Origin: an uncultured Spirochaetaceae bacterium
GTDB lineage: Bacteria; Spirochaetota; Spirochaetia; Treponematales; Treponemataceae
Length of the DNA: 33,374 nt
Direction of reading: 5' to 3'
Assembly: GCA_902778325.1 (NCBI GenBank)
Contig: CACYWZ010000035.1
Span: 1-33,374 of the forward strand
In this document: in pieces, positions 10,504 through 21,542 of the stretch
Numbering within the stretch: the first letter of the stretch is position 1
Layout: each line of letters begins with the position of its first letter
Position numbers and translations under genes: made by a program
The notes under the pieces: model-generated
What the model saw: the letters and a program-made list of their open reading frames with translations, nothing else
Databases searched by the model: none
Told to the model about the DNA's origin: nothing

Positions 10504-12381
10504 TCACGCTCTGCGCGGACGGCTTGCCATGATTGAAAGTGTAACGTTCTTTTCGACTTCACGCCCTGCTGCAAGGTCAACGTCCCAGCAAAGAGAAACC
10601 GAAACGGTGCGCCCGCCTTGTGTATCGCTCTGGCTCACGACAACGCCTGCATTCTCGTTCGGAACTAGCACGAATGCGACGTTCGAGAGCGTATCGGTGA
10701 GCTGCACATAGGATACTTCGCTTGTGAATGTGTTGTTCTCTGGGTTCTTTCGCGTTCCAGCTGAGATTATCTCTGATGCGTAACAACAGTTTTCTGCAAA
10801 GTGTGTGTCAGCAAAGTTCAGCTCAGCGACAAGTTTTGCGCGAACAACAATCGGACTTTCATTTCGCAAAATGTACTGAACTGAGATGCCAGAACTTGTT
10901 GTCATAAACTTCTTTCGAAGCGACACTGTTTGTTGCATTTCGGAGAACACGCCACTTCCAGAAAGGCGAACTTCCCTTCTCTGCGGGTCAAACATAGTTT
11001 CACTAAAGAGCGTCTTTGCGAAAATAGCGTTTCCTGCATACTTTCCGCTGACAAAATCATCAAAATCAGAAACTTCAAGAAGATAATCAACAAAAAGCCC
11101 GTGTTTTTTCTCTGAAAGGCTGTCGGCTGCATTTCCGCCACGCAATATTTCGAGTTCCGAAATACACGCACCAACTCTTTCTATGCACGCTGTATAACTT
11201 TGCATCTGGCAAATATACTCTGCAATTCCGTCGGCATTGTAATCAAACGCTGTTACGGATTCATTGAACTCACCCGCCTCGCGAACAAGTTTTTCTGCTG
11301 CATTCAAACTTCTGAAAGCTGCCTGTCGAACCTGCGTTGGAGCAAAACTTCCTGTCGTTGAGCAAATATAAGCCTTTCCATTTTGCCCTTCCCAAAGGCG
11401 CTCACGGGCTTCTTTTTTTCGCATTTTGTCGCCATGACACTGGTTTGTGAGAAGGCTCACATACATCATTCTGCGATAAAGACTGTCGCTTCTTGGATGA
11501 TATTGCAAAAGGTCATAAATCGTAGCCCGAAGTATTCCGTTATCACAAAGAGAGGCGTTTTTTGCTATGTCAGCGTTCATTCCTGCAGGGATATACTGGC
11601 GCTCAAAGTGCGTGCAGTTTTTCACTGCAACAAGAGGGTTTGAAATCTCTACATCACGAACGCTTTTGTTTTCAGCAACCGCTGCCAAATCATCAAGGAA
11701 ATGAGAATCAAGCAGTTTTTCCATTTCTTCGGCGCTAACGCTTATACTGACAACATGATCAGCATCGAAGTTCTCATCATCGCGAATCTCGTCTTGGACT
11801 TTGCGCAAAACAAGGGAAACATAATCGGCTGCACTTTGATTTCCCATGCTTTCAAGATTTCTAAAAAGTGGCAAAACAGCAACAGACTTTCCCTGATATG
11901 CAGCGATAATCGGAAGGTAGCGATTTTTTTTATGTGTGAGAAGCGTGCTGTCAAGAAAGATATACTCCATGCCACACGTCTGCAAACACGGTATCAAAGA
12001 GGACTCCCAAACTGAACCACAAAGCGTCATTCCACGAGGACGCTTTCCGATTGTTTGTCTGAGTTCTGATGTCAAAAGCTCAATCTGCCCGCTTCTGTCT
12101 TGCGGAAACAAGAGCGGGAAAATCGGATTATAATATCCACCACCAAGAACCTCAAGTTGCTTTCTGCTTGTAAGTTGTGAAATTAAATCAATATATTCAA
12201 GGTGATTTTTCTTATAAAATGAAAGTTGCGCACCTGAAAAAGAGACCGAAAACGGCAATTTTGGATGCGCGTACAAAAAAGACGCAAATCTTTTATAAAC
12301 TTTATGATAATTCTGCTCAAGAGCATCGTCGCGGTCTGATTTATCAGCCACGAGAGAAAAGCATAATTTTAGTATCCCCAC
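10504..12381 (-). CDS. GH57-like protein lacking all catalytic motifs (pseudoenzyme)
   Basis: The 625 residues follow the GH57 alpha-amylase/4-alpha-glucanotransferase pattern with the associated C-terminal domain: FSVSFSGAQLSFYKKNH, LEVLGGGYYNPIFPLLFPQD and the tail AFDYNADGIAEYI match the family closely. The catalytic positions are gone, though. The first motif (HNHQP) reads SLVADK; the nucleophile motif (W-L-A-E-R-V-W-E-P) reads TLCGSVWESS; the acid motif (DDGEKFG) reads SISVSAEE; and AYWHG reads AYICS. No signal peptide is present, so it is cytoplasmic. It starts at GTG 12381, two bases after the RnfB-like stop, with GGGA inside that gene as ribosome site. It is therefore part of the Rnf-like operon. 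It may bind glucan or have a structural role. The family call is firm; inactivity is inferred. Confidence 0.8.
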   Translation of the reverse strand: MGILKLCFSLVADKSDRDDALEQNYHKVYKRFASFLYAHPKLPFSVSFSGAQLSFYKKNHLEYIDLISQLTSRKQLEVLGGGYYNPIFPLLFPQDRSGQIELLTSELRQTIGKRPRGMTLCGSVWESSLIPCLQTCGMEYIFLDSTLLTHKKNRYLPIIAAYQGKSVAVLPLFRNLESMGNQSAADYVSLVLRKVQDEIRDDENFDADHVVSISVSAEEMEKLLDSHFLDDLAAVAENKSVRDVEISNPLVAVKNCTHFERQYIPAGMNADIAKNASLCDNGILRATIYDLLQYHPRSDSLYRRMMYVSLLTNQCHGDKMRKKEARERLWEGQNGKAYICSTTGSFAPTQVRQAAFRSLNAAEKLVREAGEFNESVTAFDYNADGIAEYICQMQSYTACIERVGACISELEILRGGNAADSLSEKKHGLFVDYLLEVSDFDDFVSGKYAGNAIFAKTLFSETMFDPQRREVRLSGSGVFSEMQQTVSLRKKFMTTSSGISVQYILRNESPIVVRAKLVAELNFADTHFAENCCYASEIISAGTRKNPENNTFTSEVSYVQLTDTLSNVAFVLVPNENAGVVVSQSDTQGGRTVSVSLCWDVDLAAGREVEKNVTLSIMASRPRRA

Positions 12382-12383
12382 GT

Positions 12384-12989
12384 TTATTTCCCGAAAAACA
12401 GTTTATAACATCTTTCCCAAAATTTAAAGTCTTTGCTGGGAGGAAGCTCATTTTTTTCAACAGAATGACACTTAGAGCAATCTGTTTTTTCTTCAGCAGG
12501 AACTGCACAATGCTTGCATTCTGCAAAATTAAGATTGACGAGTTTTATAATCTTTTTTGGGCAAACATCAACGCAATTTCCACAACCGCTACACAGTTCT
12601 GAAACAACAGCAACACCGTTTGTTATTTGAATTGCTTCTTGAGGACACACAGGAACACAATCGCCAAGCCCAACACAACTCCAATCACAAAAATCAAGTG
12701 TCTCACACTGTTCAAAAAAGAGTTTGCATTTTTTTATACCATAATAGTTCATTCGCTCTTTTTCAAAATTACGCTCTGGAGAGCAACGAACAACTGCAAC
12801 TTTTGAAAAATGCTCTGGCTTCAATTCATTTTTCTGAACAGCGAACTGTATTTCTTCACGAGAAAAAAGAGGTGCTTCTGTGCTTATTGCTTGCTGGTGC
12901 AATGCAGGAAGAAGAATATTGAAAATGAAAAACAGTATTCCGCTTAAAACAAATAAAAACAAAAAAAAGAAAAGCATTGAAAAAATCAT
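12384..12989 (-). CDS. rnfB: RnfB-like iron-sulfur subunit, first cluster domain missing
   Basis: This 201-residue protein has one N-terminal membrane helix (about 1-30). It then lacks the N-terminal Fe-S domain typical of RnfB (CGxCGxxxC motif), having no cysteine before C69. It keeps the later part: C101-x3-C105-VGLGD-C111-x3-C115-P and C133-SG-C136-GN-C139-x3-C143-P, two ferredoxin-type [4Fe-4S] sites, plus an unusual cysteine-rich tail (C158, C161, C171, C174). In Rnf complexes RnfB passes electrons between ferredoxin and the membrane subunits. The ATG overlaps the RnfA-like stop by 4 nt and follows AGGAG. This is the final rnf-type gene, in canonical order. Confidence 0.85.
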   Translation of the reverse strand: MIFSMLFFFLFLFVLSGILFFIFNILLPALHQQAISTEAPLFSREEIQFAVQKNELKPEHFSKVAVVRCSPERNFEKERMNYYGIKKCKLFFEQCETLDFCDWSCVGLGDCVPVCPQEAIQITNGVAVVSELCSGCGNCVDVCPKKIIKLVNLNFAECKHCAVPAEEKTDCSKCHSVEKNELPPSKDFKFWERCYKLFFGK

Positions 12990-13543
12990 TTTACTGCTCC
13001 TGTGTTAAGCCAAGACACATTCCATGAGAAAAGTGCAAGAAGAATTACCGCAATGCTCAAAAACACAAGTGAATGGCTTGAAAAATCTTTGCATGGCTCG
13101 CCTGATTCGATTCTTCGGAAAATAGCATGCAAAATTGGAACAAACAAATAAAATGCAAGTACACAACATAAAGATATTATTGTAACTCTTGCAAGTGAAG
13201 AGCCTTCATTGACAGAAAGCAAAATTGAAAGCAGTGAAATTGAAAACTCTGCTGCTGATTTTCGGGATGTTATTCTGACGATTGATTCACAAAAAACAGA
13301 AAGCGAAATAAAAATCAACGCACAAACAAAAGGATACAGCTCAGCCAATCCAAACGGCACAAGAAGACTTGAACAAACAAGATAGCTCAAAACAGCAGAA
13401 GACGTTACTGTCAAAATAGACTTTATAGCCCTTACAGTCTGCCCTTTTAACTCCATGCAGACAACAGCAGAGCGATTTAAGCCAATGCCATAAAAAAGGA
13501 CTGCTGATGAATAGAAAATATAATAGACAATACTTGAAATCAT
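12986..13543 (-). CDS. rnfA: RnfA-like membrane subunit, cluster cysteine lost
   Basis: This is a 185-residue protein with six hydrophobic segments, the size and topology of RnfA/NqrE. In that family two conserved cysteines (in LCPF and TNCAVLG) hold half of the [2Fe-2S] centre between RnfA and RnfE. Here the segment matching PLITTNCAVLG reads LSILLSVNEGSSLA, so that cysteine is absent. C29 lies near the first site but out of register. The alignment is otherwise continuous: VFCESIVRITSRKS matches the helix that ends in KKTSP. A strong ribosome site (GGAGG) lies inside the RnfE-like gene and the two overlap by 4 nt. Assignment rests on gene order and topology as much as on identity. Confidence 0.75.
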   Translation of the reverse strand: MISSIVYYIFYSSAVLFYGIGLNRSAVVCMELKGQTVRAIKSILTVTSSAVLSYLVCSSLLVPFGLAELYPFVCALIFISLSVFCESIVRITSRKSAAEFSISLLSILLSVNEGSSLARVTIISLCCVLAFYLFVPILHAIFRRIESGEPCKDFSSHSLVFLSIAVILLALFSWNVSWLNTGAVK

Positions 13544-14181
13544 TTTTCTTCCTCCGATTTTGCTCCACGATTAAAATAGAGATTTTCAGCAATTCGGAAT
13601 TTTCGTGATATATGGTTTTGAAAAACAATCAAAAGTCCAACAAGAACAAGCGTTCCAGGAATTGATGCTATAAAATCTCCTGCTTGCATAAAGAACTTTC
13701 GTGCTGGAAGATAAAAGCAAAGTAAAGAATCTTTAGCAGGCAATGTTATCGTTCCATATCCAAACATATCACGGAGCAAAAATAGAACAATAGCAATTGT
13801 CGAAACACGTAAACACTGGCTCATATTTTCAGCCAACTCGACAGAAATCTTTTCGCGGCTAGGGTCGAAAAAATATCCAATCAAAAAAGATGACAATGCA
13901 GGAAGATAAAGCAAAAAGCCAAGTGTCAGTGCATAAATCGGGCAATAAAGCGAAAGAACCAATTTTGCTGCCATTGAGATACAAACAAGCATCATTGCGA
14001 CAAGGACACTTTGCAAATTGCCAAGTTTCAAAACGCAAATAAGTTTTCTGAACAATGTTCCAAAAAGCATTGTGATATTAAGAAAAAGAATTAGAATTAT
14101 GCCAAACGCAAAACGACCAGGAGCCGGAACAAAAAGTGCAAGAGAGGCTGCAACAAAAACATAAAGATTATTCTGCTTCAT
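13540..14181 (-). CDS. rnfE: RnfE-like membrane subunit, both cluster cysteines lost
   Basis: This 213-residue protein has about six membrane segments. RnfE/NqrD normally carries GLCP in the first helix and TNCxxxGR further on. Here the matching stretches read SLALFVPAPGR and LYLPALSSFLIGYF, with no cysteine at either place. LLRDMFGYGTI matches the family's LREIIGNGTL, which supports the identity. The start is ATG 14181 with AAGGAG six bases before it; a TTG further up (14208) would only add charged residues over the ribosome site. The gene overlaps the RnfG-like end by 14 nt. A role in a membrane complex with the flanking subunits is inferred. Confidence 0.75.
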   Translation of the reverse strand: MKQNNLYVFVAASLALFVPAPGRFAFGIILILFLNITMLFGTLFRKLICVLKLGNLQSVLVAMMLVCISMAAKLVLSLYCPIYALTLGFLLYLPALSSFLIGYFFDPSREKISVELAENMSQCLRVSTIAIVLFLLRDMFGYGTITLPAKDSLLCFYLPARKFFMQAGDFIASIPGTLVLVGLLIVFQNHISRKFRIAENLYFNRGAKSEEEK

Positions 14182-14650
14182 TTTGAACTCCTTCTTCTTT
14201 CTCTGCAAAAATTCTCATAAGTTCAGAACTCCAATACGAAAGTTGAGATTTTTCTGCAGCACGCTCAATTCTTTTGCTCACCTCCAAGTCAGAAAGTGCA
14301 AATCCAATGAAAGCAACACTGTTATCATTGCACAAAAAAACAGCAGGCTCAGGTCCGTAAATCGTTGCCACTCGCAAAATCACGGCATATCTTGCATTAG
14401 CACCATTATTCGCAGAAACCTTATAGCACGCAGCACTTGTTGAAAGAGGAGAATTTATTGAAACAAAATCCTCAACAAAATATTCGCCAGGACACTCACG
14501 CTCAAGAACATTTTGAACTTGACTTCTCAAGCCATCTTCCCAACTTTTTCTTGAGAAAATCGTTAATACAAACAAGACAGCAAACATAAAAACAAGCAAT
14601 CCAAGGAAAATACCATAATCACGAAGTTGACGCTGTGAACTGCTAAGCAT
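14168..14650 (-). CDS. rnfG: RnfG-like subunit, flavin-attachment motif absent
   Basis: This is a 160-residue protein with one membrane helix (about 11-33) and a soluble domain placed outside the cytoplasm, as in RnfG. Typical RnfG is near 200 residues and ends with S/T-G-A-T, where FMN is joined to the threonine. This protein stops after LSYWSSELMRIFAEKEE without such a motif. The preceding part still looks like the family FMN-binding domain core (YAVILRVATIYGPEPAVFLCNDN), but the ETPGLG segment is also missing. GGAGG precedes ATG 14650, and the gene overlaps the RnfD-like gene by 8 nt. Assignment relies on position and domain layout. Confidence 0.7.
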   Translation of the reverse strand: MLSSSQRQLRDYGIFLGLLVFMFAVLFVLTIFSRKSWEDGLRSQVQNVLERECPGEYFVEDFVSINSPLSTSAACYKVSANNGANARYAVILRVATIYGPEPAVFLCNDNSVAFIGFALSDLEVSKRIERAAEKSQLSYWSSELMRIFAEKEEGVQNEAE

Positions 14651-15737
14651 TTTTCGCCTCCTTCATTGATTTTGCTTCAGGAAAAAGCTCTAACAAAACA
14701 TGACGATTTATCCTTGAGTCTTCAAGAAGCTGAATAAACGGAGAAACAGTATTTGCAACAAGAACAGAGAAAATACAACCCGCAGGAGAAGAACCAAGTC
14801 CTGCTATGACAAACAGAATAAAGCCACAAACTGCACCATAAAAGATTCTGCCACCAGTTGTATACGGAATAGTTCCATACCACGGAAGCACAAACAAAAC
14901 ACAAAAAAGAACACCGCCTGTCAAAAGCGCAAAAAGCATATCACCTTGGAAGAAAAGCCCTCCTGCAAAAAAAGAGCCGACAGTTCTCACAAGTATCAAA
15001 TACACAGCAACAGTCGAAATAGGAAGAACACACGAAACCATATCAAGCGAAAAAAGAATCAAAGACGAAACAATATTCAACACATTGAATCTGAACGCAG
15101 GAATAGAAGAACCATTGTCAATAAGGAGAGAAACATAGCCTGTCGGGAGCGAAATGCCAAAAAAGGAAAACACTTTTTCATTCAAAAACGGTGTAAGAGA
15201 AAAATCTGATTTCAACGGCTCAAGAACTCCGCTCTGGTAAATAGACCCGCCGATATTTACGCTTCCAGCAAAATCCGAAGTCATAATTGCAGACGGGAAA
15301 AACTGTGTGCCTGTAAAATATGCAATTGCAACAACAACAGCAACAGGATTTACCCAAGAACCTGAAAATGTTTCAAACGCATTTTTTACTAGCGTGAACA
15401 CAAAAAACGTTATGCAAAAAACTGCAAGGAGCGGAAAAGTTTCTGGCAAAAACATTCCTGTAAAAAGCCCCTGTGCAATAGAAATTGCAAGAGTGTCATG
15501 ATGACGGCGATATTTTTTCAAATTAACAAACTCAGAAAGAACTGACGCCATTACTGCTGCTAAAATTACAAAAAGAGAAGAAAAACTCCTTGTCGCAAAA
15601 AGCGCCAAAAGTTGTGGCACAAGCAAAAAAATCTCAGAAAGAACTGACGCTCTGACAGAAGGTTTTGTATAAACAAACGGGCGCAAAATAACAGTTTCTT
15701 TTGCTGCTATAGATTTTTTCAAAAAAACATTATTCAT
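14643..15737 (-). CDS. rnfD: RnfD-like membrane subunit
   Basis: This 364-residue protein has eight to ten membrane segments, with family landmarks NPVAVVVAIAYF (usual NPA...), GGRIFYGAVCGFILFVIAGLG and SPAGCIFSVLVANTVSPFIQ near the C-terminus. RnfD normally carries FMN on a threonine in SGATPL or SQATPL. The matching place here, SDFSLTPF, keeps Thr-Pro but not Gly/Gln-Ala, so attachment is doubtful. The TDP motif before the C-terminal helices is replaced by LPW. AAGGAG precedes ATG 15737, which overlaps the RnfC-like stop by 8 nt. In Rnf this subunit forms the membrane path with RnfA and RnfE. Confidence 0.85.
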   Translation of the reverse strand: MNNVFLKKSIAAKETVILRPFVYTKPSVRASVLSEIFLLVPQLLALFATRSFSSLFVILAAVMASVLSEFVNLKKYRRHHDTLAISIAQGLFTGMFLPETFPLLAVFCITFFVFTLVKNAFETFSGSWVNPVAVVVAIAYFTGTQFFPSAIMTSDFAGSVNIGGSIYQSGVLEPLKSDFSLTPFLNEKVFSFFGISLPTGYVSLLIDNGSSIPAFRFNVLNIVSSLILFSLDMVSCVLPISTVAVYLILVRTVGSFFAGGLFFQGDMLFALLTGGVLFCVLFVLPWYGTIPYTTGGRIFYGAVCGFILFVIAGLGSSPAGCIFSVLVANTVSPFIQLLEDSRINRHVLLELFPEAKSMKEAKNA

Positions 15738-17052
15738 AATTCCGCTCCTTTTTCAAAACTGCAATCGACTGGCTCAACGGAAGTCTGGAAGGACAAACAC
15801 TATTGCACAATGAACAACCAGAACAAAGCAAAGCAGTTTCAAGAAGTTCCTTTTTCACAACCTTATCCATTCCCTTTAACCTTGAATGTAAAAGGTCAGG
15901 ATACAAATGCTCAGGACAAACTTTTCTGCATTCACCGCACCTGACACAAGAAGCATAATGAGGGTCTACAAGTTCAAAAACTGGCAAGAATGTAACAGAT
16001 TTTACAATTTTTGTTACAGGAACATCAAAACCAGGTGCGGCAGTTCCCGTGTAAAGACCGTTCACAACAACTTTTGATACATTATGCAAAAATCCACCAC
16101 ACTGAGATGCCAAAAATCCCATGCTTGTTCCAATGCTCACCCGAAGAACGCCCGAAACACGAAGACAATCACCTGTTACATGCACAAAGCAACTTGTCAT
16201 CGGGATTCCACAAACAACAGCCTCGTAAACAGCAAATGCAGTTTCTGGGTCAATGAAAAGGTCTTTATGAGAAAGGCTTTCAAAAACAGGAGCGATATTC
16301 TTTGAGTTTTTTTTCACAAGCCGAACAATATCGCGCTTGAATCCACACGGATACTGAGATGTATCAGCAGAAACGGTAGCATGCTCAATATTTTCAAAAA
16401 AGCGACTCTTTATTTCTGTCGTAATCGGAGAGCCGTCTTTTTTGGACGCGACAAGAATGATACCTTCTGCTTGCAAAGCGGAGGCAATGATAGAACAGCC
16501 CTCTGCAACTTGAGCAGGGTATCGATTTGAAACAAAAGAATCTGTCTGGCGACTTGGGTCTTCATCAAAAAGGCGAAGAACAACAAAGCGCTTTGAAGAA
16601 GATTTCACACGAGATATTTCAGAAGCAAGACTGCAAGGTTTTTCAAAAGTGCTTATAATTCCTTTTTCTGCAATCATGCTCTGAAGACTTTCAGGAGAAA
16701 ACAAACTCCATTCCGCAGGAAAATTCTTTTTTCCGAGAAACGAGAACGAGCCTCCAACAGCAATTACAGCAGCATCGCTTCGCTTCCCGTCAGGAAGTGA
16801 AACAGAGCGTATTTCTTTCACGACACCAGGAAGAGGAGCATGAATATTCGCTGAATAACTATTCTTGATTATCGAAAGAGGAGTTGCAATTATCTGCCCT
16901 TCACTTACTTTATCCCCTACTTTCACAAGAGGACGGCAATGACAAGAATCTTCTTGCATAAAAGGCACGACAGCCAGTTGTGGCAAAAATGCACGAGAAG
17001 CGCACTTGAACTGCCACTTTTCCGTTATGTTGAAATTAGATACTATTGGCAT
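15730..17052 (-). CDS. rnfC: RnfC-like peripheral subunit, NADH/FMN loops missing
   Basis: This 440-residue cytoplasmic subunit has the RnfC domain order: a lipoyl-like fold (VKVGDKVSEGQIIATP), a Complex I 51-kDa-like domain, a SLBB region (TGDCLRVSGVL) and two [4Fe-4S] motifs, CVRCGECRKVCP and CSGCSLCNSVCP, near the C-terminus. The glycine-rich loop that binds FMN and NADH (GGAGFPT) reads ISTFEKPCS, and GAECEPYLTADHRLM reads LFDEDPSRQTD, so the usual NADH site is lost. The start is ATG 17052, which overlaps the upstream gene by 17 nt; an upstream in-frame start would add 21 residues of unlike sequence. It may accept electrons from something other than NADH, or serve only as a scaffold. Confidence 0.88.
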   Translation of the reverse strand: MPIVSNFNITEKWQFKCASRAFLPQLAVVPFMQEDSCHCRPLVKVGDKVSEGQIIATPLSIIKNSYSANIHAPLPGVVKEIRSVSLPDGKRSDAAVIAVGGSFSFLGKKNFPAEWSLFSPESLQSMIAEKGIISTFEKPCSLASEISRVKSSSKRFVVLRLFDEDPSRQTDSFVSNRYPAQVAEGCSIIASALQAEGIILVASKKDGSPITTEIKSRFFENIEHATVSADTSQYPCGFKRDIVRLVKKNSKNIAPVFESLSHKDLFIDPETAFAVYEAVVCGIPMTSCFVHVTGDCLRVSGVLRVSIGTSMGFLASQCGGFLHNVSKVVVNGLYTGTAAPGFDVPVTKIVKSVTFLPVFELVDPHYASCVRCGECRKVCPEHLYPDLLHSRLKGMDKVVKKELLETALLCSGCSLCNSVCPSRLPLSQSIAVLKKERNYE

Positions 17053-18466
17053 ATTGTTTTCTTCTTCTATGTATATAATAAAGTGCCATTCCAAGCGGAA
17101 TGCATACAGTTCCAAACAAAATCACGAGCGAAATCTGATTTACTCTTTCTACTTCTCCAGATGATGAAGAATACGAAAAGCGCGCATTTTCACCTTGAGA
17201 AGCCAAGAGCAATTCAATTCGATTTTGCCCTTCATCTTTTATGGACGAGAGCATCTCTTTCAAAAACTGCTGTCCATAGACAAATTGCTTTGAAGAGCGC
17301 TTCACAACCTTTGAGCCGTCCATTCCATAAAAAGGGACTTCCACAACATCACCCTCTTTGAATGTTGAAGCGCTGTCATTGACAGAAGCCCAAAGCGGGC
17401 GATATTGGAATGTTACAAGATTCCAGCTCCAGTTCAAATAATCATTCAAATCAGGAAGATACTCTTCTTCTTGAGAAGCCGTCGGCGACGGAAGAGCCAA
17501 GCCGCTCACGCTCATTCCAGATGAAAAATGTCCAAGAGGAAAAAGCGAAAACACAATTTGGAGCAAAATTGCGCCCGCACACAAAAAAAGACAATCCGCA
17601 ACTTCTCGCGTTATCACAACCTCGTAGGGCGAAGATATTATGCTGATTGGAGAAAAACTCGAACTTCCAACGCGGAAATTGCGAGCAAAGCCTTTCGGTG
17701 ATTTTCCGTCAAAATGCAAAATCATGACAGCACAAGAGAGAAGCCCTATCGCAGCAACTGCGCAAAGAAGCGCATTTTTTGGCGATACAGAAAAGCAAAT
17801 CAAAACAGGCGCAAAAATCGAAAGCAACAAAAACACATTGTGAAAGCCCGGAAAAATCGCATTCGGCTTTTGATAAAGTTTTTGAAGCAAGAAGCAGCCA
17901 TAAAGCAAAAGACAAGAAGCAGCGCCATTTATGCTGTTTGGGACGCAAATTGCGAATGCGAGCGGGAAAATCGAGAACAAAACAAACGAAAGCCGACTTT
18001 CTGCGCTGAAAAGCAAGCACACAAAAAACAAAAAGCACACCACAGGCACCAAAAACGGGTATGAAAAAGACTCATCGATTCCACAAGTGCCAAATGCCAA
18101 AAGAGATGACAGCGCAGAAGAAAGCTCACCCCTAAAATCGTCAGGGATATAATAAAGCTCAAAGCGCTTGTTTTCGTCGAAAAAATACTTTTTGACTTCC
18201 TCAGGATAATCCATCGAAAGAGCATTCTCGCTTTCAAACCGAGCAGGCGCCATTGTTTCAAGAGCCTTCCCGTGCTCCCTCATCGAGATAACCCCGCTTA
18301 TGCCATATTTTGAAAGAATATCCAAAACAGTATTCTCAGCGATTGCAACATCAGCATAAAGAACAGTGTATCCTTTCCAGATTTTTGAAACAGGCACTAC
18401 ACGAGAATAAACAAGAAAAACAAGGCTGAGGCAAATTATTAAAACAGATAAAAGACGTTTCAACAT
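17036..18466 (-). CDS. Unknown multi-pass membrane protein heading the Rnf-like genes
   Basis: The 476 residues are not recognised. There is an N-terminal helix (5-22), a soluble part of about 110 residues, a block of seven or so hydrophobic segments (about 135-310), a second soluble stretch with LPDLNDYLNWSWNLVTFQYRP and a C-terminal helix (about 447-465) ending in basic residues. The soluble parts probably lie outside the cytoplasm, going by positive charges at the ends. No catalytic motif is visible. It starts 9 nt after the PAP2-like gene and overlaps the RnfC-like gene by 17 nt, so it is made with the complex and is a candidate extra subunit or assembly factor. No clear Shine-Dalgarno is seen, so translation may depend on coupling. 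Confidence 0.8.
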   Translation of the reverse strand: MLKRLLSVLIICLSLVFLVYSRVVPVSKIWKGYTVLYADVAIAENTVLDILSKYGISGVISMREHGKALETMAPARFESENALSMDYPEEVKKYFFDENKRFELYYIPDDFRGELSSALSSLLAFGTCGIDESFSYPFLVPVVCFLFFVCLLFSAESRLSFVLFSIFPLAFAICVPNSINGAASCLLLYGCFLLQKLYQKPNAIFPGFHNVFLLLSIFAPVLICFSVSPKNALLCAVAAIGLLSCAVMILHFDGKSPKGFARNFRVGSSSFSPISIISSPYEVVITREVADCLFLCAGAILLQIVFSLFPLGHFSSGMSVSGLALPSPTASQEEEYLPDLNDYLNWSWNLVTFQYRPLWASVNDSASTFKEGDVVEVPFYGMDGSKVVKRSSKQFVYGQQFLKEMLSSIKDEGQNRIELLLASQGENARFSYSSSSGEVERVNQISLVILFGTVCIPLGMALYYIHRRRKQYANSI

Positions 18467-18475
18467 TTTTATTTT

Positions 18476-18955
18476 TTACAATACTGCAAATGCAAGACCA
18501 TTTATAAATCCCAAAAGGCTTCCTATCACAACTTCCATCGGAGCATGTCCTTGAACTTCTTTCACAGGAGTATACTCAACCAAGCCCTTTTCGCTGAGCG
18601 CACGCCCAATCACATTCAAGACCTTTCCCTGAACGCCGCTTGAGCGCCTGACTCCGACAGCATCGCGAACCGTAATAAGATAAAGGCAAAGCGCCAATAC
18701 AAACACATCAGAATCAAAGCCTGAGTGGAAGCCAATAGAAATGCTAAGACATGCCACAAGAGCGGCATGACTCGACGGCATACTGCCTGTCCGCCACAAC
18801 AACAACTCAAACAAATCTTTTATTGAATGAACTCTTCCAGAAAATAATTTGATAACAGTCTTTATGAATTGAGCGGAAAACCAACTGAATATGCACGCAA
18901 TGAGAATCGGGTTTTGAAATAATACGTAAACTTGTGCTTTTGCGTTGACCAACAT
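18476..18955 (-). CDS. Divergent PAP2-family membrane protein (DUF212/YuiD type)
   Basis: This 159-residue protein with four or five hydrophobic segments carries the family signature in order: TGSMPSSHAALVA, RDAVGVRRSSGVQGKVLN and EVQGHAPMEVVIGSLLG. The family is related to lipid phosphatases and vanadium haloperoxidases; its substrate is not established. ATG 18955 is chosen over the in-frame TTG at 18976 because the TTG falls inside the promoter. No Shine-Dalgarno is present, and the -10 box ends seven bases before the ATG. It is the first gene of the long minus-strand operon leading to the Rnf-like subunits. Confidence 0.88.
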   Translation of the reverse strand: MLVNAKAQVYVLFQNPILIACIFSWFSAQFIKTVIKLFSGRVHSIKDLFELLLWRTGSMPSSHAALVACLSISIGFHSGFDSDVFVLALCLYLITVRDAVGVRRSSGVQGKVLNVIGRALSEKGLVEYTPVKEVQGHAPMEVVIGSLLGFINGLAFAVL

Positions 18956-18961
18956 GCTTAT

Positions 18962-18990
18962 ATTATGGCTTTTCAATGCTATTTTGTCTA
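18962..18990 (-). promoter_or_regulatory. Promoter of the Rnf-like operon, probably leaderless
   Basis: On the minus strand TAGACA (18985-18990), a 17-bp spacer and CATAAT (18962-18967) are followed by seven bases and then ATG 18955. Transcription would start at the start codon itself. Confidence 0.6.
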
Positions 18991-19599: not shown

Positions 19600-21132
19600 A
19601 TGATTACTGGTGAAATCAAAAACAAGCTCGACAATCTTTGGGACGCAATGTGGTCAAATCAGATGACCAACCCTTGGATTGATATTCAGCAGATAACATA
19701 TCTCATCTTTATAAAAATGCTGGACGACAACCAGATTAAAATTGAGAGAAAAATAAACAGTCTTGTCGCGGCGGGACTGGAAGTAAATATTGAAGACTAC
19801 GACCTTATTTTCAAGGACGGCTTTTATATCGACGAAGAAGACAAAATCAACTGTCCTTATGCAGACCTTCGCTGGAGTGTTTTCAGCACTTGGGGCGACA
19901 ACGGCAAAAAGTTCGACAACCTCAAGAACAATGTTTTCCCTTTCATCAAAAAACTTCATGGCGACAAAGTGACTTCTTTTGCCAAGTACATGGAAAAAGC
20001 AGAGTTTGCAATTTCAAATCCATATATCTTGGGCAAAATGATTGAAGCCTTGAGCGACCCAGAACTCGGATTCAACAAGACGGATATGATGGGCGACTGC
20101 TACGAGTACCTGCTTTCAAAAATGGCAACCAGCGGCGACAACGGACAGTTCCGCACTCCCCGCCACATAATCGACATGATGGTGGAAATTGCAAAGCCTG
20201 GTCTTACAGACACAATCATTGACCCTGCAATGGGAACAGCGGGATTCTTGAGCGAAAGTGCAAAATACATTCAGGAGCACTACGCAAAGGAACTCACGAA
20301 CAAAACAAACAATCAGCATTTTCACAATGAGATGTTCACAGGCTTTGACACCGACACAGACATGCTCAGAATCGGCTGTATGAATATGACCTTGCACGGA
20401 GTGGAAAACCCGACAATCAAATACAACAATTCTTTGGGCGAAGATTACGAGGAAAAAGATTCACACACACTTATTCTTGCAAACCCGCCATTCAGCGGAA
20501 GTCTTGACCCAAGCACTGTTGCAAAGTCCCTTATCCAGATTAGTGGCGGAACAAAAAAGACAGAGCTTTTGTTCTTGAGTCTATTCTTGCGTCTTCTTAA
20601 AGTCGGTGGTCGCTGTGTAAGCATTATTCCTGTCGGTGTTTTGAACAACACAAACGACAAAGCTTACAAAAAACTTCGCAAAGAACTTGTGGAAAATCAG
20701 AAGCTCGAAGGCATTATCTTTATGCCGGGCGGAGTTTTCTATCCATATTCTGGAGTTCAGACAGGAATCCTTATTTTTACAAAAACAAATGCGGGCGGAA
20801 CAGACAAAGTCTGGATGTACAACATGGAAAACGACGGTTACAGCCTTGACCAAAAGCGCGACCCAATCGATGCAAACGATATTCCAGATATCATCAACCG
20901 CTGGAACAACCGCGACAAAGAAGCAGAACGTACTCATTACGAAAAATCTTTCTTTGTAGATAAGCAAGAAATCGTTAATAACGATTATGTTTTCTCTTTC
21001 AACAAGTATCAGAAAAAAGAAGTTGAAAAGAAAGAATACCGCCCTGTAAGAGAAATCTTTGCTTCAATCAATGAGCTCGAAAAGCAATTCGGTCAGATTA
21101 TGAGTGAGTTGCAGGGGAATACGGAAAGCTGA
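19600..21132 (+). CDS. hsdM: Type I restriction-modification N6-adenine methyltransferase
   Basis: This 510-residue modification subunit methylates adenine in the target chosen by HsdS, with S-adenosylmethionine as donor. It has the N-terminal helical HsdM domain (about 5-140), then GQFRTPRHIIDMMV, SAM-binding motif I DPAMGTAGF (208-216) and catalytic NPPF (295-298). The C-terminal coiled region (about 470-505) normally contacts HsdS. The length fits the family. GGAAG precedes ATG 19600. It is separated from hsdS by a truncated nuclease gene and tandem array 4, an unusual split for genes that are usually adjacent. Confidence 0.96.
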   Translation: MITGEIKNKLDNLWDAMWSNQMTNPWIDIQQITYLIFIKMLDDNQIKIERKINSLVAAGLEVNIEDYDLIFKDGFYIDEEDKINCPYADLRWSVFSTWGDNGKKFDNLKNNVFPFIKKLHGDKVTSFAKYMEKAEFAISNPYILGKMIEALSDPELGFNKTDMMGDCYEYLLSKMATSGDNGQFRTPRHIIDMMVEIAKPGLTDTIIDPAMGTAGFLSESAKYIQEHYAKELTNKTNNQHFHNEMFTGFDTDTDMLRIGCMNMTLHGVENPTIKYNNSLGEDYEEKDSHTLILANPPFSGSLDPSTVAKSLIQISGGTKKTELLFLSLFLRLLKVGGRCVSIIPVGVLNNTNDKAYKKLRKELVENQKLEGIIFMPGGVFYPYSGVQTGILIFTKTNAGGTDKVWMYNMENDGYSLDQKRDPIDANDIPDIINRWNNRDKEAERTHYEKSFFVDKQEIVNNDYVFSFNKYQKKEVEKKEYRPVREIFASINELEKQFGQIMSELQGNTES

Positions 21133-21149
21133 AAGCGGAGAATTGAGAG

Positions 21150-21542
21150 ATGAATGAAATAATCATACAGAATCAGGAATATGAAGAATGGAAAAATGAA
21201 ATTGTCTCTGAAATCCATACTCGACAGCTGAAAACTGTTATGAACATAAATGCTGATACTTTGAAAAACTATTTTGGGATCGGCAAAAAGATACTTGCAG
21301 CCCAAAAAGAAAAAGGCTGGGGAAGCCACGTCATAGATAAGTTATCCGAAGATTTGGAAAAAGAGTTCGGTAAAAATAACGATTACTCTGCTCGTAATTT
21401 GCGAAACATGAAGATTTTTGCAGAAGAGTATCCTGAATTTCCAATTTGGCAAGTGCCTCTTGCCAAATTAGGCGGAGAAACGCAAAAAGTGCAAGTGTCG
21501 CTTGCACAAATCACTTGGTATCATCATATTACGACAAATTGA
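21150..21542 (+). pseudogene. Truncated DUF1016 (YhcG-type) nuclease gene
   Basis: The 130 residues match the N-terminal DUF1016 domain: LKTVMNINADTLKNYFGIGKKI, a segment reading EFGKNNDYSARNLRNMK and SLAQITWYHHI. Full proteins are about 330-350 residues, with a C-terminal PD-(D/E)xK nuclease domain that is wholly missing here. The frame stops two codons after WYHHI and no other frame downstream restores it. The gene begins 17 nt after hsdM with GGAG ahead of ATG. Genes of this family often sit inside type I loci. The remnant may be dead, or a free N-terminal domain. Confidence 0.75.

Follow-up and report, generated by a model that had tools for sequence, protein, structure and literature searches.

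In the canonical Rnf complex, RnfG moves as an electron shuttle coupled to Na+ translocation. The Na+-NQR, which is also Rnf-derived, keeps the flavins of NqrB and NqrC and the cluster of NqrD and NqrE, and has NqrF. According to PMC4014512, the NqrA subunit of this pump is a homologue of RnfC without cofactors. The NQR/RNF-like flavinylated systems described in PMC8238504 are likewise relatives of Rnf/Nqr, partial or altered, that are encoded in gene clusters; there, a flavinylation-associated cluster contains an NqrB/RnfD-type domain fused to a NAD-binding domain. Here we analyzed a 33,374-nt stretch of DNA (hereafter the window) from an uncultured Spirochaetaceae bacterium, which carries a conserved Rnf-like gene cluster on its minus strand. 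The cluster shares the C-D-G-E-A-B order, the topology and the two RnfC [4Fe-4S] clusters with the Rnf complexes of Acetobacterium woodii (9eri), Azotobacter vinelandii (8ahx) and Clostridium tetanomorphum (7zc6). However, it lacks the RnfC loops for flavin mononucleotide (FMN) and NAD+, the FMN residues of RnfD and RnfG, the riboflavin residues of RnfD, the [2Fe-2S] ligands of RnfA and RnfE and the N-terminal cluster of RnfB, and it adds a PAP2-like gene, a gene that we call X and a GH57 gene. Compared with the Na+-NQR, the pattern is different: RnfC has kept its Fe-S clusters and the membrane core has lost its cofactor sites. In contrast to the flavinylated systems, no flavinylation motif was found in the window's cluster. 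Judged by its sequences, the divergent complex is a separate Rnf paralogue.

Homologues of all six Rnf subunits were found in one operon by Pfam, NCBIfam and hhalign. The genes are transcribed in the order PAP2-like, X, C-D-G-E-A-B and GH57, and their frames overlap or are closely spaced, which bears out the gene order, topology and overlapping frames given by the initial annotation. The RnfC-like gene (15730..17052; its open reading frame (ORF) opens at 17115, and a conserved Met22 places the start at 17052) matched TIGR01945 at E=3e-49, the RnfD-like gene (14643..15737) matched PF03116 at E=2.3e-34, and the RnfB-like gene (12384..12989) matched NF005503 (RnfB) at E=7.9e-20. The RnfE-like (13540..14181; ORF opens at 14208) and RnfA-like (12986..13543) proteins were aligned by hhalign with their canonical counterparts at probabilities of 97.9 (E 6.4e-13) and 98.2 (E 3.2e-14), respectively. 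The RnfG-like gene (14168..14650) encodes one transmembrane (TM) helix and a periplasmic RnfG/NqrC-type fold without the FMN attachment motif. None of the window's subunits reached the curated NCBIfam cut-offs for Rnf; the scores were 167.7 vs. 245.95 for RnfC, 69.2 vs. 207.05 for RnfD, 71.3 vs. 252 for RnfB and, at the edge of detection, 15.6 vs. 229.3 for RnfA. No credible match in Pfam or NCBIfam was obtained for RnfE, RnfG and X of the window, and no Pfam match to the FAD/NAD domain of NqrF was seen among the nine proteins of the cluster.

The cofactor sites were compared between the window's family (41 rows each of RnfC, RnfD, RnfE and RnfA, window included; 30 rows of RnfB) and a canonical set of Treponema Rnf (20 rows; 17 for RnfB). 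Two false RnfB matches that are really RnfC (loci L064 and L074) and two short canonical RnfB sequences (L110 and L121) were dropped before the RnfB counts, and the canonical locus L109 gave no RnfB match. In the canonical rows, the tested residues of RnfC, RnfD (motif S, A and T), RnfE and RnfA were kept in 20/20. The FMN/NAD+ loops of RnfC (GxGG and ECEP), which the initial annotation had reported missing from the window, were present in 0/41 rows of the window's family vs. 20/20 canonical rows. The two [4Fe-4S] motifs of RnfC, comprising eight cysteines, were kept in 39/41 rows. The other two, L082 and L091, lack them because they are partial (a contig end and a short, apparently split ORF), so that the motifs occur in 39/39 full-length sequences. 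The eight cysteines were also kept in 20/20 rows from other families of the order. In addition, we collected 80 named loci by RnfD peptide patterns, a sample that is hence skewed to the window's own type. A motif scan of their RnfC proteins of at least 400 amino acids (aa) found two CX2CX2CX3C motifs in 76/76 and a flavin-type motif in 1/76, a chance ECEP at residue 41 and outside the site. The RnfC clusters are the only redox sites examined that were kept in every complete sequence. This bears on the idea of a purely structural scaffold for envelope assembly, in which the RnfC clusters would serve protein stability only. NqrA, which no longer has the RnfC cofactors and is argued to have retained a structural function (PMC4014512), offers a precedent, but the persistence of all eight cysteines in these three sets while the flavin loops drifted makes us doubt it.

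RnfB of the window combines a TM helix with a single two-cluster ferredoxin domain, without the N-terminal Fe-S domain and without C-terminal clusters. The absence of the first Fe-S domain held throughout the family, in which the N-terminal cysteines are gaps in 30/30 rows. The remaining cluster cysteines, the two ferredoxin sites that had been noted alongside those of RnfC, were kept in 29/30 rows (the exception, L068, is truncated), and the canonical RnfB cysteines were kept in 17/17. The RnfB gene itself is missing from 11/40 family loci and 14/68 named loci, and is present in 50 of the 63 named loci in which the sequence runs on for over 3.5 kb behind rnfA. The spacing between rnfA and the GH57 gene is -3 to 164 bp in 14/14 RnfB-less loci, that is, a clean deletion.

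Sites were also lost in the membrane core. At the FMN threonine of RnfD, which is T in 20/20 canonical rows, the window has Ile and its family mostly Pro, Ala or Ser; the window shows a PAFRFN signature where the canonical protein has GCIGETS. The riboflavin site was located by transferring A. woodii N123 and D249 (PMC11889175) through the alignment. Both residues are kept in 20/20 canonical RnfD. They are replaced by S and W in the window, the commonest residues in its family as well (22/41 and 24/41; N kept in 9 rows and D in 5). These losses in RnfD go beyond the initial annotation. For RnfG, the reported loss of the flavin threonine was confirmed, the attachment motif [ST]GA[ST] being found in 0/41 rows of the window's family vs. 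16/20 canonical rows; this strict motif misses variants such as AGAS, and finds 16/20 canonical and 3/7 'other' RnfG. Some canonical treponemal RnfG ORFs are long and contain two SGAT motifs, as in L104 (2896-4017, 373 aa) and L114 (2369-3979, 536 aa). At the [2Fe-2S] positions, which are Cys in 20/20 canonical rows (with an adjoining Pro in 18/20 RnfA), the window has A and S in RnfE and N and S in RnfA. RnfE has thus lost both cluster cysteines, as annotated, and RnfA, for which at least one loss had been claimed, has in fact lost both. Cys is the commonest residue at none of the four positions in the window's family, and RnfE C26 is Cys in 6/41. We considered whether cofactor ligands might sit at shifted positions, but this was rejected, since RnfD, RnfE, RnfA and RnfG have no column with at least 60% Cys or His in the 41 rows of the window's family.

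Given these losses, we weighed whether the complex could still work as a non-canonical Rnf, with electrons crossing the membrane from flavodoxin via non-covalent flavins or another carrier. The retained Fe-S clusters of RnfC, and often of RnfB, are in line with such a pump, and a flavodoxin-using noncanonical RNF has been proposed for Treponema pallidum (PMC7512555). The RnfD riboflavin site also persists in another family of the order, f5 (N in 12/12 rows; D in 9/12 and E in 3/12), and the ApbE gene is still present in the window's genome. On the other hand, the window's family lacks the RnfA/E ligands, both FMN threonines and the RnfC loops, its riboflavin residues are replaced in most rows, its core has no candidate Cys/His column, and no match to the FMN_bind domain was found in the window's genome. 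In A. woodii, activity and growth were abolished in Rnf variants without the [2Fe-2S] cysteines, RnfG Thr185 or RnfD N123/D249 (PMC11889175); because these variants are inactive, a complex missing all these residues should not work as Rnf. We therefore regard a working non-canonical pump as rather improbable. The initial annotation had left two possibilities, a different electron path or a non-redox job. The non-redox (or at least not transmembrane-redox) job fits better, because no conserved Cys/His in RnfD, RnfE, RnfA or RnfG could ligand a replacement metal cofactor, although non-covalent flavin may still be bound. As a separate observation, the ApbE flavin transferase gene of the window's genome (G000, contig C12 34604-35434, L032) is kept although the genome has no FMN_bind match.

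A further possibility is a redox-sensing switch, in which the RnfC clusters gate a passive conduit for ions or solutes formed by RnfD, RnfE and RnfA; the sensed input could be the redox state of cytosolic ferredoxin or flavodoxin, or oxidative damage. Both the switch and these inputs seem to us unlikely, though not far-fetched. The RnfC clusters are kept even where RnfB has been cleanly deleted, and RnfA-like proteins have two conserved acids (window 13205-13249), E99 (E/D in 38/41) and E113 (E in 35/41). However, the membrane placement of these acids rests on a gapped, low-identity alignment, which also puts E99 near the canonical Na+-site motif (a proximity noted but not relied on), and the published RnfE ion-pair positions R67-E115 are not conserved in the alignment.

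We next turn to gene order and selection. All 68 named loci in which both ends are visible have the order PAP-X-C-D-G-E-A-(B)-GH57 on one strand, and a rearrangement was found in none of the 80 named loci. In 10 of the 12 loci without one end, the contig stops short; in the other two, L225 and L227, the PAP2-like gene is absent despite 5.2 and 2.1 kb of upstream DNA. The 40 family loci gave 39 matches for PAP2, 38 for X (it is missing, for instance, in L083), 39 for GH57 and 29 for RnfB. Ratios of nonsynonymous to synonymous substitution rates (dN/dS) were calculated for 30 of 66 pairs, namely the closest ones, with dS of 0.05-2; the values of L157-L163 and L073-L157 are identical, and these pairs probably represent the same genomes. 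The median dN/dS was 0.057 for PAP, 0.112 for X, 0.047 for RnfC, 0.064 for RnfD, 0.118 for RnfG, 0.106 for RnfE, 0.042 for RnfA, 0.131 for RnfB and 0.084 for GH57. The low ratios and the conserved order uphold the claim that the genes are under selection as a set, and together they rule out random decay. A slow decay, in which expressed genes are losing function and cofactor loss is a stage en route to pseudogenes, could draw on the graded site loss across families, on the absences of RnfB, on the missing catalytic Glu in most family GH57 proteins and on the close pair L074-L189, with an elevated dN/dS in every gene except PAP2 (0.12-0.28, and 0.57 in RnfG). It is already largely contradicted by the median dN/dS of 0.04-0.13 in the Rnf genes, by the intact order and by the retention of the gene in 87/87 high-quality family genomes, including a reduced one of 1.14 Mb, and we consider it very improbable.

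A protein of the NqrB/RnfD family was found in 241/242 genomes of the order. In the window's family, 94 genomes were sampled. Two or more RnfD were found in 78 of them, the best at the canonical level (E 1e-98 or lower). The other 16, the window's genome included, have a single, divergent RnfD (E 1e-18 to 1e-41). With the window's RnfD as the query, matches were obtained in 118/118 family genomes. The divergent rnfD gene is held by 110 of these, among them all 87 of high quality, and the other 8, all less than 90% complete, gave a weak match only (E 1e-8 to 1e-13). Whether a canonical rnf operon exists elsewhere thus has two answers: most family genomes have a canonical-level RnfD, and none was found in the window's genome, a 94% complete assembly with a single PF03116 match and no PF02508 match. 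A canonical Rnf elsewhere in this genome was accordingly rejected, with the reservation that 94% completeness does not wholly exclude a missing copy. G013, a reduced genome in a single contig of 1,139,633 bp, has the divergent RnfD copy only; neither RnfB nor X was found in it, and its two FMN_bind matches both lie outside the Rnf-like cluster. In other families of the order, cluster-level scores were reached in 41/49 (f5), 23/23 (f4) and 11/30 (f3) genomes. We examined 20 loci from these families, which gave 20 RnfC, 20 RnfD, 19 RnfE, 18 RnfA and 5 RnfB rows. They show the same gene order with exceptions: X was not found in L138, L140, L151 and L156 (the X profile is weak there), PAP2 not in L140, and GH57 neither in L148 nor in L149 (a short contig). 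RnfB is present in 5/20 (L141, L150 and L154-L156).

Six loci from other orders of the class (L239, L242 and L246-L249) consist of rnfCDGEAB followed directly by GH57, with flavin and Fe-S sites intact; Ser replaces the RnfD Thr in L242 and L246, and all six RnfG carry GA[ST][IV]TF by eye. These operons are similar to the window's cluster in order and GH57 gene, but differ in having the cofactor sites. L246 also has a PAP2-like gene upstream, and X-like genes stand upstream in L246 (229 aa, E 3e-15 with the X profile) and L249 (496 aa, E 3e-16). Four further loci of other orders (L241 and L243-L245) are stripped. All four have PAP2 and X, none gave an RnfB match, and a GH57 match was obtained in L243 alone. 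In a quick tree of RnfC and RnfD (55 rows, 789 columns, rooted on canonical rows; 20 rows have unusual composition), all 38 stripped rows form one clade (SH-aLRT 100) within a series of intact Rnf-GH57 operons, with SH-aLRT of 98 and 91 for the two forks that follow, and canonical treponemal Rnf stands apart (99). The single clade, together with the gene order, the low dN/dS and the presence in 110/118 family genomes, supports the proposal of a second class of Rnf-derived membrane complex.

The stripped rows are not equally stripped. The RnfC GxGG loop is altered in all of them, and several cofactor sites remain in f3 and part of f4. The RnfG SGAT is still present in L154, the full set of RnfA/E cysteines in L150, L154 and L156, and the RnfB N-terminal cysteines in L150 and L154-L156. 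Of the 20 rows of f3, f4 and f5, all retain the riboflavin N and 17 the D. From the tree and the site tables, we infer that the cofactor sites were lost stepwise, and infer the direction of change as well. The data suggest that the RnfC GxGG went first, followed by the RnfA/E cluster, the RnfD and RnfG flavin sites and RnfB, and that the riboflavin residues may have been lost last, in most of the window's family. It is very unusual that the electron wiring of a respiratory pump is lost piecemeal while the protein set stays under strong selection, and the living intermediates allow each step of the loss to be studied.

The neighbouring genes belong to the cluster. The initial annotation had included the two membrane proteins ahead of rnfC, and this is well supported: of the 70 named loci whose DNA extends over 3.5 kb ahead of rnfC, all have X and 68 have the PAP2-like gene. 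The GH57 gene behind, which had not been included, was found in 63/63 named loci whose DNA extends over 3.5 kb past rnfA. The first gene (18476..18976; alternative ATG start at 18955) encodes a divergent PAP2/DUF212 membrane protein (PF02681, E=1.6e-37). Protein X (17036..18466, 476 aa) is laid out as TM1, a periplasmic domain, TM helices, a second periplasmic domain and a last TM helix, and models as a small RND-like membrane protein. RND proteins have an acidic proton-relay residue in TM4. X resembles the RND superfamily (MmpL, AcrB, Patched and NPC1) in its predicted TM1-porter-TM2-7-porter-TM8 arrangement, but it lacks TM9-12, the conserved TM acid and any Pfam or NCBIfam match; no 90%-conserved acid was found inside its predicted TM helices. 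The GH57-family gene (10504..12381; PF03065, E=8.5e-24) is the last of the conserved cluster. Its Gly122 is aligned to E123 of 1k1w, which we take to be the catalytic Glu of the T. litoralis enzyme, and this Glu is absent from most family members. With the protein still conserved, GH57 looks like a pseudoenzyme. The idea that the Glu was lost together with the Rnf cofactors was dropped, as the column is not Glu in five aligned GH57 proteins of intact operons either; L248 has a Glu one position off, and the alignment is weak at this place.

Because of this gene neighbourhood and the predicted fold of X, the complex probably does another job in the cell envelope. We tentatively favor, at a little short of an even chance, a neofunctionalised Rnf paralogue whose D-G-E-A core has given up transmembrane electron flow, whose RnfC has kept its Fe-S clusters and which serves an envelope task. 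The core would no longer carry electrons across the membrane, nor would the complex catalyse ferredoxin:NAD+ oxidoreduction. RnfC would dock on the cytosolic face, where its two [4Fe-4S] clusters may either sense redox state or serve a cytosolic partner as a local port for electrons. Together with the RND-like X and the PAP2-like protein, the core may move or process, for example, a lipid-linked substrate, driven by conformational changes and possibly an ion gradient in place of electron flow. A bolder version, to which we give only a slim chance, is that the Rnf core is an electron-free machine driven by an ion gradient and powering X, with RnfG as the mechanical arm and RnfD/E/A as the ion path. 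It is just as speculative that X, without a proton relay of its own, would work with the PAP2-like partner in an envelope export or assembly step, with the RnfC Fe-S clusters as the switch. If true, a respiratory complex would have been turned into a new kind of envelope energy transducer, similar in function to ExbBD-TonB or MotAB.

The finding touches on a long-standing question, the energy supply of treponemes, the syphilis agent among them. An Rnf pump is part of published models of T. pallidum, and electron-pumping models resting on a treponemal 'Rnf' are called into question. A 2024 genomics paper names tp0151 of T. pallidum rnfD (PMC11371664). If G013 is T. pallidum, the only Rnf found there is the stripped one, without the residues needed for electron transfer elsewhere. 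The flavodoxin-RNF model (PMC7512555) needs direct biochemical proof, if the same genes are meant. In the literature searched, which did not cover the gene assignments of a 2015 mBio paper, no description of a cofactor-stripped Rnf was found. Finally, upstream of the cluster (19600-21542), the window has a type I restriction-modification M subunit gene and a DUF1016-like gene, both named by sequence reading, and many relatives have an RluD-like gene at this place.

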